Part shown: positions 2,127-41,071 of the stretch, one piece after another
Position numbering within the stretch: position 1 is the stretch's first letter
Layout: each line of letters opens with the position of its first letter
Origin: Planktothricoides raciborskii GIHE-MW2
Lineage (GTDB): Bacteria; Cyanobacteriota; Cyanobacteriia; Cyanobacteriales; Laspinemataceae
NCBI RefSeq assembly: GCF_040564635.1
Contig: NZ_CP159837.1
Coordinates: 1,429,001 to 1,493,000 of the forward strand
DNA length: 64,000 nt
Reading direction: 5' to 3'
Notes under the pieces: model-generated
What the model was told of the DNA's origin: nothing
Database searches by the model: none
What the model saw: only the letters and a program-made list of their open reading frames with translations
Made by a program: the position numbers and the translations under genes

Positions 2127-3527
2127 ATGAAACTACATTTTTTAGCCAAACTTTCAGCAATTCTTTTTTTAGTAGGCAGTGGTGTAATTTTTCTGCCCAT
2201 TGCCGATAGTTTTTTCTGTCCTCGGTTGGTATTCAGTCGAGAAATCAACGACTTTGGTGACGAGGGCAGTGATGGGAGTAATGGTCGCAGTGGTGCAGAT
2301 GGTCGCAATGGTGAAAATCGCACGATTTTTGTGGATGGTTCGGAATTATATCTGAACCTGTCTGGGGAAGATGGAGGAGATGGGGAGGATGGGGATGATG
2401 GGGATGATGCCCGGTCTTGCCGCCAACCGAACCGAGCCGATCGCGACCAAGAAGGGGCCGATGGTGGGGACGGAGGTGACGGAGGACGCGGTGGCAATGG
2501 CGGCAATGGCGGGGCTTTGACGGTGTATTACACCAACCTTGAAGACCTGAAAAAAATCTATGTCCTGGCTAAAGGGGGCAGTGGTGGCAGTGGGGGAGAA
2601 CGGGGATATGGTGGCGATGGTTGCGAATGTCGCGATCGCCGCTGGAATGAAGAAGTTTGTACCGGGACTCCGGGAAATCCCGACTACCGTTGTGAAACCC
2701 GTTCTTTTGTTTGTAGCGATGGCGATGATGGGGATGATGGCAGTTCTGGGAGTTCTGGGAGTGATGGCAAATTGGGCACTTTAAGGCTAATTCAAGGGAC
2801 AGAACCTTTGCCCCAGGAACAACCGGCGATCGCCCGTTCTTTAGCGGAATTTAGCAACCAAATTTTTGTCTTATCTAAACATATCTGGGAAACGCGCCGT
2901 GGGGCAAAGAATTTATTAGGCAGTAACTCAATTATTGCCGATGAATATCGTCAGTTTATCAAGCGCATTGAAAAGCCGGTACAACTGGTCTGGAATGCGG
3001 AGCGATCGCCCAGAAATTTTGCCAACACCAGAGTCACATTTCAGCTAAAAGATGACCAAACCTTAGAAATGTCTGTTCCCGAAGAACTTTGGCTACAAAC
3101 CAGCCAAATTGAAACCGATAACCAGACTCAATTCGTCATTTCTCAAGCAATGTTAGCCAGTGAAGCCACCCAACTTAGGCTAGTGGATGTCGCCAACAAT
3201 GGCAAAAATTTGCAACTAACCTTAATTGACGTAGCCAGACAATCACATATTTTAGACACGGAATTAGAAATAGTCTATCAAACCACTCCTGCTGCCCCAA
3301 GAGGACGATTTGATGATAATTATACCACCCGCTATCAAGGCAAAATACCCCCTGAATTAGTCTCATTTACTTCAGATCGCTTTACCGTCAATATCGGTCA
3401 ATTACCCATTGCCGAACAATATTTACGCAGCGGCTTAAATATCAAAATTGAATTACGGATTATTCGCTTTTTAGGTGAACGGTCAGCGGAACAAAAAATC
3501 GAATGGCGCGGGGCAATTAGAAGGTAA
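2127..3527 (+). CDS. Secreted glycine/aspartate-rich collagen-like protein
   Basis: Unnamed family, 466 residues. Residues 1-32 are a hydrophobic signal-like segment (lysine, then AILFLVGSGVIFLP), so export is likely. Residues about 45-205 are low-complexity G-x-x repeats dominated by Gly, Asp, Asn and Ser, interrupted by a short TVYYTNLEDLKKIYVL strand and a Cys-rich patch with six cysteines (CEC, VC, RC, VC) that could form disulphides. Residues 210-466 are an ordinary mixed-composition domain that I do not recognise. The gene is monocistronic, with no obvious partner. The composition suggests an extracellular or sheath-associated structural protein, which is inference. The antisense frame full of PPSPPSP is an artefact of the repeat codons. 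Confidence 0.75.
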   Translation: MKLHFLAKLSAILFLVGSGVIFLPIADSFFCPRLVFSREINDFGDEGSDGSNGRSGADGRNGENRTIFVDGSELYLNLSGEDGGDGEDGDDGDDARSCRQPNRADRDQEGADGGDGGDGGRGGNGGNGGALTVYYTNLEDLKKIYVLAKGGSGGSGGERGYGGDGCECRDRRWNEEVCTGTPGNPDYRCETRSFVCSDGDDGDDGSSGSSGSDGKLGTLRLIQGTEPLPQEQPAIARSLAEFSNQIFVLSKHIWETRRGAKNLLGSNSIIADEYRQFIKRIEKPVQLVWNAERSPRNFANTRVTFQLKDDQTLEMSVPEELWLQTSQIETDNQTQFVISQAMLASEATQLRLVDVANNGKNLQLTLIDVARQSHILDTELEIVYQTTPAAPRGRFDDNYTTRYQGKIPPELVSFTSDRFTVNIGQLPIAEQYLRSGLNIKIELRIIRFLGERSAEQKIEWRGAIRR

Positions 3528-5494: not shown

Positions 5495-5913
5495 CTACAG
5501 CGTCCAATCTTCAATTTTTAGTCCAGGAACCTGACCAAAATCTCGTTGATTCCTGGTGACAACAGTAGCACCAATAGATAAAGCGATCGCCGCAATTCGC
5601 ATATCTTTTTGCAGGCGATTTTTCCGCAAAGGCGGATGATATTTTAAAAGTTGCTTGAGACAATTATCCGCCTCTGGTGTAAAATTTAAGACCTCAATAG
5701 ATTGGAGATATTGTACAGTTGTCCTTTTGAATAAAGTTCCGGGAGGTTATGCACCTGGGATGGATCGTTAATCCTGCCAACCCAGCCATTAAAAAGTTCT
5801 TGAACCGTGATAATTGTGATGGCAAACTGATGCTGTCCTGCCTTAGCAGTCAGTTGAGGATGATTGTAGAGAATCAGTGAAATACAATCAGTATCCAAAA
5901 TATATTGACACAC
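5495..5913 (-). pseudogene. VapC-like PIN-domain toxin, frameshifted
   Basis: The GTG start at 5913 gives CQYILDTDCISLIL, the PIN N-terminus with its first acidic residue, followed by TIITVQELFNGW. The frame then runs off into a stop near 5686. In another frame the rest of a PIN domain continues to the TAG at 5495-5497: QYLQSIEVLNF, KDMRIAAIALSIGATVVTRN, and the terminal DFGQVPGLKIEDW. Adding one base to the four-A run (TTTT at 5725-5728 on +) restores a single frame of about 139 codons. An AGGTGG ribosome site precedes the GTG, 12 nt after the antitoxin stop. PIN toxins are RNases; this copy is inactive unless the indel is a read error or is bypassed by slippage. Confidence 0.8.
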
Positions 5914-5925
5914 CCTTAGCCACCT

Positions 5926-6282
5926 CTACAGATAATAGGAAGGATCGACTTCCGAATCATCGTCTGAGTTTCTTTCAGCATGAATTGATTCTATAATGGC
6001 CGCAAAATCAGCATCGTCTTTAAAGACCCCAGCAAATTTTATCCAAGTAGGTTCTTTTTCTGGAATCGGCACATTCCATGAAATCGCTTCTATGTTTTTT
6101 AGTCGTTCTAAAAAATTCGCTTGAATTTGTGCGATCGCCTCTTCTCGTGTTGCTGCTTTCACTCGACAGTCGGGAAACTCTCTAATCGATGCCGCAACTT
6201 GCCCAGATGTTACGGGTTCTATCAGTAACGTGACTTTGAGGTTGCTTAATGGATGGGACTGGGATAACTCTAATTTCATCAT
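5926..6282 (-). CDS. Antitoxin partner of the PIN-domain gene
   Basis: 118 residues, directly upstream of the VapC-like gene on the same strand with a 12-nt gap. The N-terminal part (VTLLIEPVTSGQVAASIREF, then PDCRVKAATREEAIAQIQAN) has the beta-beta-alpha pattern of HicB-like partial RNase H folds used by some antitoxins. The C-terminus is acidic (FKDDADFAAIIESIHAER, then SDDDSEVDPSYYL), as expected for a toxin-binding tail. ATG at 6282 or the adjacent one at 6279 could start it. The antitoxin is intact while its toxin frame is broken, so it may persist as an orphan or a decoy. Confidence 0.75.
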   Translation of the reverse strand: MMKLELSQSHPLSNLKVTLLIEPVTSGQVAASIREFPDCRVKAATREEAIAQIQANFLERLKNIEAISWNVPIPEKEPTWIKFAGVFKDDADFAAIIESIHAERNSDDDSEVDPSYYL

Positions 6283-39883: not shown

Positions 39884-40327
39884 ATGCCGATTTACTTTTA
39901 CAGCACTCGTGACCCTAATTATGGTTGTTTTTCCAACTTTTCCCGACATGGGTTTGAGTTAGATGACTTGTGGTGGCCAACCAGTGAGCATTATTTCCAA
40001 GCACAGAAGTTCGTAGAAAGCGATCGCCCTTGGTTTGAAAAAATAAATCAAGCAAAAACTCCCAGTATTGCCGCTACAATGGGGCGTGATCGCTCTCATC
40101 CTTTACGGACTGATTGGGAACAAGTCAAAGATGACATTATGCAGCGGGCAGTGCTAAAAAAATTTACAACTCATGCCAAACTTCGGGAAATTCTCCTCGC
40201 TACTGGCGATCAGTTAATTGTAGAAAATGCCCCAAAAGATTACTACTGGGGCTGTGGTGCTGACGGCACTGGCAAAAATCAACTGGGACAAATTTTAATG
40301 GCGGTGCGAGAAATCTTACGTCAATAG
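39884..40327 (+). CDS. NADAR-family protein (YbiA/DUF1768)
   Basis: 147 residues: YFYSTRDPNYGCFSNFSRHG, WWPTSEHYFQAQKF (conserved E-H-Y-x-Q), ATMGRDRSHPLRTDWE, AVLKKFTTHAKLREILLATG, YYWGCGADGTGKNQLGQILM (W-G-x-G-x-x-G-x-G-x-N-x-L-G). Family members hydrolyse N-glycosidic bonds in riboflavin-pathway intermediates or remove ADP-ribose from nucleic acid or protein; the latter is linked to toxin or phage counter-defence. It lies directly upstream of the tRNA-like cluster with a 33-nt gap, which may be coincidental. Confidence 0.93.
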   Translation: MPIYFYSTRDPNYGCFSNFSRHGFELDDLWWPTSEHYFQAQKFVESDRPWFEKINQAKTPSIAATMGRDRSHPLRTDWEQVKDDIMQRAVLKKFTTHAKLREILLATGDQLIVENAPKDYYWGCGADGTGKNQLGQILMAVREILRQ

Positions 40328-40360
40328 TAAATTAACCAGTCAATATTCATTAATCAATAT

Positions 40361-40428
40361 GAGTCTGTAGATCAATGGGCGATCGCCTCTCACACAGGAG
40401 GCGGTGGGTTCAACCCCCACCAGATCCA
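40361..40428 (+). tRNA. tRNA-like gene, best read as Val (anticodon CAC)
   Basis: Acceptor GAGTCTG/CAGATCC (one A-C mismatch, one wobble), D arm GATC-AATGGGC-GATC perfect, T arm GTGGG-TTCAACC-CCCAC perfect with canonical TTCAANC. The anticodon arm CGCCT-CTCACAC-AGGAG has one mismatch and puts CAC in the anticodon. The variable loop is only 3 nt. It is 68 nt long, so atypical; a decayed relative occurs at 41325-41400. Confidence 0.6.
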
Positions 40429-40438
40429 TCTATCTTAT

Positions 40439-40514: not shown

Positions 40515-40581
40515 CGGAAGTTTGATTTCTTCATCAACCACCGGAGGCAGAAAAGCGAGGGATTGTTATGATGGAAATCAT

Positions 40582-40839
40582 GGGGAGGTGGCCTAAATTG
40601 GCAAGGCACCGTAAAAACTTGAGAAGCGGCTCCTAAAAAGACGATCGGGTTTATTGAGTAAGGTCAAAAGTTGCTTGGCGACGTTCCCTGAAACCGTAAA
40701 CGGGCAACAGGTTGCGGAGGCACTGAAAGGAATTAATAGTCCGAGGTGGGGGCAGTTCCCATCTGCCTACGGGTAGTAAGGAAGCGCGTTTCCTGAAAGT
40801 TGTCGGCGATCGATGCGGGTTCGACTCCCGTCCTCTCCA
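40582..40839 (+). ncRNA. Split class-II tRNA-like gene with about 154-nt insert in the anticodon loop region
   Basis: The 5' part GGGGAGG-TG-GCC...GGC-A (40582-40608) and the 3' end CCTCTCC-A (40832-40839) make a 7-bp acceptor stem with one wobble. The D stem is GCC/GGC, Ser/Leu-like, and the T arm GCGGG-TTCGACT-CCCGT is canonical. CCGTA (40609-40613) pairs with TACGG (40768-40772) as a 5-bp anticodon stem. AGGAA...TTCCT forms a long variable arm. Between the anticodon stem halves lie 154 nt with their own stems (GTTGC/GCAAC, CCGTAAACGG, GGCAG/CTGCC). I could not fit a group I or group II intron. An alternative is two overlapping tRNA remnants: AACCGTA at 40691 with TACGGGT at 40768 also pair 6 of 7. 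Confidence 0.5.
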
Positions 40840-40966: not shown

Positions 40967-41047
40967 GGAAGATGCTGCTGAATGGTCGGCAACCTGTCTT
41001 GAAAACAGGAGTATGGGAAACTGTAGGGGTTCGATTTCTCCATCTTC
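40967..41047 (+). tRNA. tRNA-Ser-like gene (anticodon TGA)
   Basis: Acceptor GGAAGAT/ATCTTCT (7 pairs, one wobble), D stem GCTG/CGGC, anticodon arm CCTGT-CTTGAAA-ACAGG perfect, with anticodon TGA, and a long variable arm (AGTATGGGAAACTGT) as expected for serine. The T arm AGGGG-TTCGATT-TCTCC keeps the TTCGATT loop but has two wobbles and one mismatch. Linkers are each one base longer than canonical. It is the best-preserved member of the cluster. Confidence 0.7.
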
Positions 41048-41071
41048 TTTTCAAATGTATTCAATTGTGAG

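Follow-up and report, generated by a model that had tools for sequence, protein, structure and literature searches.

A candidate family of structured RNAs with tRNA-like ends associated with the trn arrays of filamentous cyanobacteria

How can the acceptor, D and T arms of one tRNA belong to a single gene when a long structured stretch separates them, and what would such a gene make? The question is raised by positions 40582–40839 of the window, the whole 64,000-nt stretch of Planktothricoides raciborskii GIHE-MW2 DNA analysed here. A sequence-only reading of the locus described a tRNA divided by an insert and left the choice between a degenerate intron in miniature, an insert of a novel type and a pair of overlapping tRNA remnants. 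Of these, the novel insert comes closest to what we find, and the other two fail. The element is very probably an RNA gene of filamentous cyanobacteria, about 258 nt long and unlisted until now; its sequence marks it as the member of a new family of structured RNAs whose ends resemble those of a tRNA, apparently tied to the cyanobacterial trn/TrcR stress system. The literature searched held no earlier description of it, and a mention in the trn-operon paper of NAR 2021 (PMC8421152) is possible.

The limits first assigned to the element proved exact: its homologs share both ends, GGGGAGG at 40582 and CCTCTCCA at 40839, and align without large gaps. The source genome is a single contig of 7.2 Mb, in which a genome search finds the element once. 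ARAGORN and Rfam make no call at the element, and its flanks give ordinary or degraded tRNAs. The central domain belongs to no Rfam family at E<=10 in the three homologs searched. Only short tRNA-tail pieces match the element in INPHARED, leaving a phage origin unsupported; PLSDB returned no match at all, and three patterns had zero exact matches to the element in IMG/VR.

Nineteen distinct intact homologs from several cyanobacterial families were aligned; they are 258–262 nt long and approximately 81–99% identical to the window copy. A DNA search of 148 relatives gave four full-length matches besides the window copy (258 nt each, 85–88% identity), and an exact 22-base core pattern occurs at 13 loci in GTDB-based contigs, among them Microcoleus, Argonema, Aliterella and Symploca. 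Planktothricoides sp. SR001 (L043; genome G148), listed under the same species in the whole-genome set, carries a near-identical element. The R1 model, built on sequence only from 14 copies, matches in 22 of 389 genomes of the order (~6%), in 13 of 62 genomes of the family with most copies, and in 3 of 386 genomes of a phylum-wide draw. In the homolog pairs L054/L055, L054/L057, L046/L045, L048/L052 and L046/L048, the element is 94.6–99.6% identical while identity in the 200 nt downstream is at the chance level of 40–46%; the window and Argonema copies are 88.4% identical, with 44.6% in the 200 nt downstream. Other pairs have conserved flanks as well. Conservation of the element where the downstream DNA is at chance level points to purifying selection acting on the element itself.

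Rearranged copies also occur. An inversion breaks the element in genome G322 (L064, L066), where both halves match approximately model positions 139–159, beside the most conserved block. In genome G348 (L065), palindromic GGCTGTCGCC-type repeats are inserted at two places, one of them in the region of hairpin 89–101, and the 3' end is lost. Genome G280 (L067) contains a partial 5' duplicate, covering about the first 87–130 positions, 2.4 kb upstream of an intact copy.

The secondary structure was taken from the RNAalifold consensus of 14 of the 19 aligned rows, with one hairpin picked by eye. Its parts are given below in window positions, which equal the element numbering (in brackets) plus 40581.

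40582..40839, + strand: whole tRNA-like RNA, 258 nt; A73 at 40839, CCA not encoded; same ends in the 19 intact homologs
40582..40588 (1–7), + strand: acceptor stem 5' strand GGGGAGG, with the G3 of G3.U70; 7/7 pairs with 40832–40838; G3.U70 in 19/19
40591..40607 (stem 10–12/24–26), + strand: D arm GCC/GGC with GG in the loop; invariant in 19/19
40609..40629 (stem 28–31/45–48; 40609–40612 with 40626–40629), + strand: short anticodon-arm-like hairpin CCGN/NCGG; last pair covaries
40642..40812, + strand: large variable-region domain; closing helix 40642–40647/40807–40812 (61–66/226–231) with 3 double-change pairs
40649..40701, + strand: first branch; outer helix 40649–40654/40696–40701 (68–73/115–120), 2 outer pairs with double changes
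40661–40663/40687–40689 (80–82/106–108) and hairpin 40670–40682 (89–93/97–101), + strand: inner parts of the first branch
40703..40804, + strand: second branch; outer helix 40703–40708/40799–40804 (122–127/218–223), 3 outer pairs with double changes
40709..40743, + strand: conserved, mostly unpaired block with GCACTGAAAGGAATTAAYAGTCC; near invariant across families, no covariation-supported pairing
40744–40764 (163–170/176–183), 40765–40774 (184–186/191–193) and 40779–40794 (198–202/209–213), + strand: hairpins of the second branch
40815..40831 (234–238/246–250), + strand: T arm GCGGG-TTCGANT-CCCGT; kept in all homologs, 4/5 pairs invariant
40832..40839 (stem 251–257), + strand: acceptor stem 3' strand CCTCTCC and discriminator A; A73 in 18/19, U in Aliterella

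The canonical parts, namely the 7-bp acceptor stem, the D arm and the T arm, were correctly recognized from the window sequence and are near invariant in the 19 distinct sequences. Across these sequences the 61-bp structure has 98.7% of cells paired, a figure biased towards the structure because the structure was derived from 14 of the same rows; the counts of double changes are stronger structural evidence. Changes on both sides affect 11 pairs, against a mean of 4.1 in shuffles, and none of 500 shuffles is as high; four of the five measures of the shuffle test in all gave this outcome. When the partners are slid out of register, no more than 5 pairs have double changes and no more than 54% of cells pair. 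Within the second branch, hairpins 9 and 10 contribute one double-change pair each, and one pair of the hairpin at 40779–40794 is broken in 4 sequences. Even the broken copy L065 has a compensatory change in its D stem (GTC/GAC), and the window copy keeps all 61 of 61 pairs intact. Thermodynamic folding of the element as a single sequence is no better than that of shuffles (z -0.32) and is thus uninformative, so that the structural case rests on conservation and covariation.

Two internal pairings had been proposed as signs of real structure, GTTGC/GCAAC and GGCAG/CTGCC. They can form in 94/95 and 93/95 cells but gain no supporting double change; GTTGC also pairs locally with GCGAC, and GCAAC pairs with 40799–40804, where compensatory changes are present. 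A P7-like pairing, GGcACTG/CAGTCC, found no support, being broken or mismatched in several homologs.

The main departure from the sequence-only reading concerns the place of the insert, which had been set at 40614–40767, splitting the anticodon stem. The stem that follows the D arm is an intact local hairpin whose last pair varies among U-G, U-A, C-G and G-C across homologs. No anticodon arm is therefore interrupted, and the insert lies in the variable region: the domain of ~185 nt sits between the hairpin arm and the T arm, where class II tRNAs carry a long variable arm. The absence of U33 was rightly noted, as the A-rich loop at the anticodon position spans 13–16 nt and includes neither U33 nor an anticodon-like 7-nt loop. 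The element consequently falls outside the four-arm fold of tRNA (RF00005), of which it has the acceptor, D and T arms and lacks the 7-nt anticodon loop with U33.

The same hairpin (40609–40629) and its covariation are at odds with a group I insertion in an anticodon loop, whose removal would restore the arm. The lack of a group I core was likewise borne out by Rfam, and with it the miniature degenerate intron falls, the group I covariance model (RF00028) having no match at E<=10 in three homologs. Elsewhere in the genome this model matches at G000:C1:2334103-2334310 and 4800236-4800577, with 99 and 38.5 bits, only the first exceeding the family cut-off. The intron mode of ARAGORN, run on the homologs, gave either nothing or inconsistent anticodons (Thr, Gly, Val, Ala). 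Two overlapping tRNA remnants do not fit either, the 19 distinct copies being collinear single units. The insert is thus real, structured and conserved, as part of these single units.

Where the flanking sequence is long enough, almost every copy lies inside an array of about 20–30 tRNAs, in which the element follows His, Ser(CGA), Ser(TGA) and Ile-like tRNAs. Such an array can still be traced around the element in the window.

40360..40430, + strand: degraded Val(CAC)-like array tRNA, 33.7 bits
40440..40514, + strand: remnant of a His(GTG)-type array tRNA, sub-threshold tRNA match of 17.9 bits; resembles array tRNA-His in L071/L073
40536..40576, + strand: remnant of an Ile(GAU)-like array tRNA, matched by eye to the 5' portion of the tRNA at this array position in L042/L071
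40855..40910, + strand: remnant of an Arg(ACG)-type array tRNA; a GACGCTACGAACGTC arm also lies 3' of the element in L066, and Aliterella has tRNA-Arg(ACG) there
40967..41049, + strand: array-type tRNA-Ser(TGA), ~78–82% identical to array tRNA-Ser at homologous loci

These neighbours are mostly remnants, and the pairs of the element are all kept. Directly upstream of the decayed array, 39884–40327 encodes a NADAR-domain protein (PF08719, E 9.5e-43). The Ile(GAU)-type array tRNA (L042 ~5883–5957; L071 ~3170–3243; the remnant at 40536–40576 in the window) is itself unusual: its T loop reads GGCAGTA and not TTCRANT, its D loop has no GG, and ARAGORN is silent on it, yet it is conserved from Nostoc to Microcoleus.

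An array is not a prerequisite for the element, as Symploca sp. SIO3C6 (L036/L149) has an intact solo copy with no tRNA called by ARAGORN in 19.9 kb; the gene downstream of this copy is a long ORF that we take to be secA. Conversely, the element is absent from the trn arrays inspected on Nostoc, Tolypothrix, Calothrix and Kovacikia plasmids and is therefore dispensable to the operon. In the element-free Nostoc relatives inspected, Ser(TGA) and the Ile-like tRNA are the last members of the array. No locus among the inspected arrays has an uninterrupted version of the element.

In Anabaena sp. PCC 7120 the trn operon comprises 26 tRNAs and is expressed only once translation is inhibited; TrcR, which represses it, binds at TGTAGTAT, a site overlapping the -10 box, and the gene of the RNA-repair ligase, rtcB, belongs to the TrcR regulon too (PMC10272220). 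In the element-bearing arrays of Microcoleus (L031, L034) and Aliterella (L038), an exact TGTAGTAT precedes the first tRNA by no more than 250 nt, and the same holds for element-free arrays of Nostoc and Calothrix. In Symploca, the sole TGTAGTAT in ~20 kb lies at -34 from the element and sits on a -10 sequence, TAGTAT, with TTGCAG 17 nt upstream (TTGCAG-17-TAGTAT). The exact operator is absent from the whole 64 kb of the window, and the 300 nt upstream of the L042 array contain none either, so that regulation differs between loci. Taken as a set, the copies are either embedded in a trn-type array or preceded by a TrcR operator, the window copy itself being of the former kind. Directly behind the exact published trcR operator in Symploca and Aliterella is a gene for a protein of ~110 aa, putatively TrcR, a name that rests on the operator. 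A TrcR-like gene is present in 14 of 14 genomes tested, that of the window included. Microcoleus copies L046, L048, L049 and L053 have a conserved TTTGCTATC block ~35 nt upstream of the element, in some copies as part of an imperfect palindrome, TTGCTATCCTATAGCAA; the block may be a separate promoter or operator.

The acceptor end carries the marks of alanine identity, for which G3.U70 is the main determinant read by AlaRS. All intact copies have this pair, and all have A73 except the Aliterella copy (U73); a U1.C72 mismatch occurs in two copies. Among the tRNAs of this genome, G3.U70 is confined to tRNA-Ala (two show it directly, and the third, Ala(TGC), after by-eye correction of a one-base register shift), and the tmRNA of the genome has it too (acceptor GGGGCTG / CAGCTCC, A73). 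The four tRNA-Ser acceptor stems read GGAGAGG/CCTCTCC with G73, and the element departs from them at just two positions, with G for A at base 3 and A for G at base 73. When the 5' 12 and 3' 25 nt are compared, tRNA-Ser is the best-matching isotype with 31/37 against 28/37 for the next, from which we infer that the element probably derives from tRNA-Ser; both acceptor changes are of the kind that should convert Ser identity to Ala. Long variable arms are read by SerRS, and as tRNA-Ser is the closest in acceptor and T-arm sequence, SerRS could be the charging enzyme instead of AlaRS.

The element thus has the appearance of a single-copy, free-standing structured noncoding RNA of ~258 nt with tRNA-like ends, in which the anticodon arm seems reduced to a hairpin without an anticodon and the variable arm expanded into a conserved, multi-branched domain of ~185 nt. 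Conservation, covariation, position in trn-type arrays, persistence after decay or loss of the array, upstream TrcR operators and alanine determinants can all be read from the sequences, and together they argue that it is very probably a functional structured RNA of the trn/TrcR system. The explanation that we favour overall, with a probability of roughly 0.58, is a tRNA-derived, probably alanylatable, anticodon-less stress RNA of this system. Under translational stress, the element would be transcribed along with the rest of the trn operon or, in Symploca, from a TrcR promoter of its own; the RNA would be excised by RNase P and the enzymes that process tRNA 3' ends, CCA would then be added, and AlaRS would charge it with alanine. 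For alanylation as such we see about even chances. The product might then take part in translation in a way broadly like that of tmRNA, as an alanyl tRNA-like adaptor that lacks an anticodon; such action on the ribosome is doubtful, as is the wider proposal of a second anticodon-less, alanine-charged tRNA-like RNA beside tmRNA, a former tRNA-Ser with its variable arm grown into a large functional domain and its identity switched to alanine, freed under translational stress for stalled or damaged ribosomes.

The main alternative is a role as a decoy, or one directed at AlaRS. The RNA, charged or uncharged, would titrate AlaRS (or SerRS), or absorb anticodon nucleases or other tRNA-attacking enzymes in stress, and would not enter the ribosome. 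The trn arrays do resemble a store of tRNAs kept for stress, TrcR also controls rtcB (PMC10272220), and the alanine identity set is kept without any anticodon; a mere decoy, however, would have no need of a ~185-nt domain with near-invariant unpaired blocks, and we consider this role unlikely. Very improbable is a tRNA gene whose anticodon or variable loop holds an intron that is spliced out to give a working tRNA. Canonical acceptor, D and T arms are present, cyanobacterial tRNAs are known to carry group I introns, and two sites in this genome match the group I model; yet without the insert there is still no 7-nt anticodon loop, the hairpin after the D arm is supported by covariation, Rfam matches no intron, ARAGORN in intron mode is inconsistent or empty, and the inspected arrays have no uninterrupted version.

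We give hardly any credence to a decaying tRNA pseudogene with an inserted mobile repeat, or to two merged tRNA remnants. The array neighbours in the window are indeed remnants, and broken copies exist in G322 (inversion), G348 (insertions) and G280 (partial duplicate), but the copies are collinear and ~81–99% identical in several families, with compensatory changes and unaligned flanks, and the element is single in its genome; covariation and flank comparison have already largely refuted this account. A DNA-level element such as a recombination or attachment site, conserved through protein-DNA binding and not as RNA, is scarcely plausible. While tRNA-like sequences are common attachment sites, and the G322 inversion breaks within the element at matching halves (~139–159), the compensatory changes affect RNA-type pairs, G-U included, the ORFs beside the Symploca solo copy include no obvious integrase, and a promoter-like TrcR site reads into that copy.

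Large silent tRNA arrays help cyanobacteria to survive translation inhibitors. As a stress RNA of the trn/TrcR system, a conserved, alanine-marked, tRNA-shaped RNA found in these arrays, and as a solo gene with the same operator type, would suggest a dedicated component beyond spare tRNAs. The element is a concrete candidate for such a component, and an example of how a tRNA can, by way of its variable arm, give rise to a structured RNA of a new kind.

Among known systems, tmRNA (SsrA, RF00023) shares with the element a tRNA-like acceptor and T arm, no anticodon, a long structured insert with a closing helix beside the T arm, and the alanine determinants G3.U70 (19/19) and A73 (18/19). Unlike tmRNA, the element has a true D stem and a separate hairpin at the anticodon position, and it has no resume codon or conserved tag frame; a short in-frame stretch after the hairpin, considered as a tag, is not conserved as protein on inspection of the alignment. 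The tmRNA covariance model gives 13.7 bits in the window and 7.2 in Aliterella against a cut-off of 47, the match covering the T arm and acceptor only, and the tmRNA mode of ARAGORN makes zero calls and finds zero tags in the 19 homologs. The element is ruled out as the tmRNA of its genome, which encodes an ordinary one elsewhere (131 bits, tag ANNIVPFARKAATVAA). The group I introns of cyanobacterial tRNA-Leu(UAA) and tRNA-fMet (RF00028) are also structured inserts of a few hundred nucleotides inside tRNA genes, but the insert of the element is at the wrong position, matches no model and leaves no reconstituted anticodon arm. Class II tRNAs, tRNA-Ser in particular, have nearly the same acceptor stem, and the variable region is the part expanded, to ~185 nt in place of about 15–20, in an element without an anticodon loop. 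The closest setting is the trn operon of Anabaena sp. PCC 7120, with the same kind of array and operator; that operon is described as 26 tRNA genes (PMC10272220).
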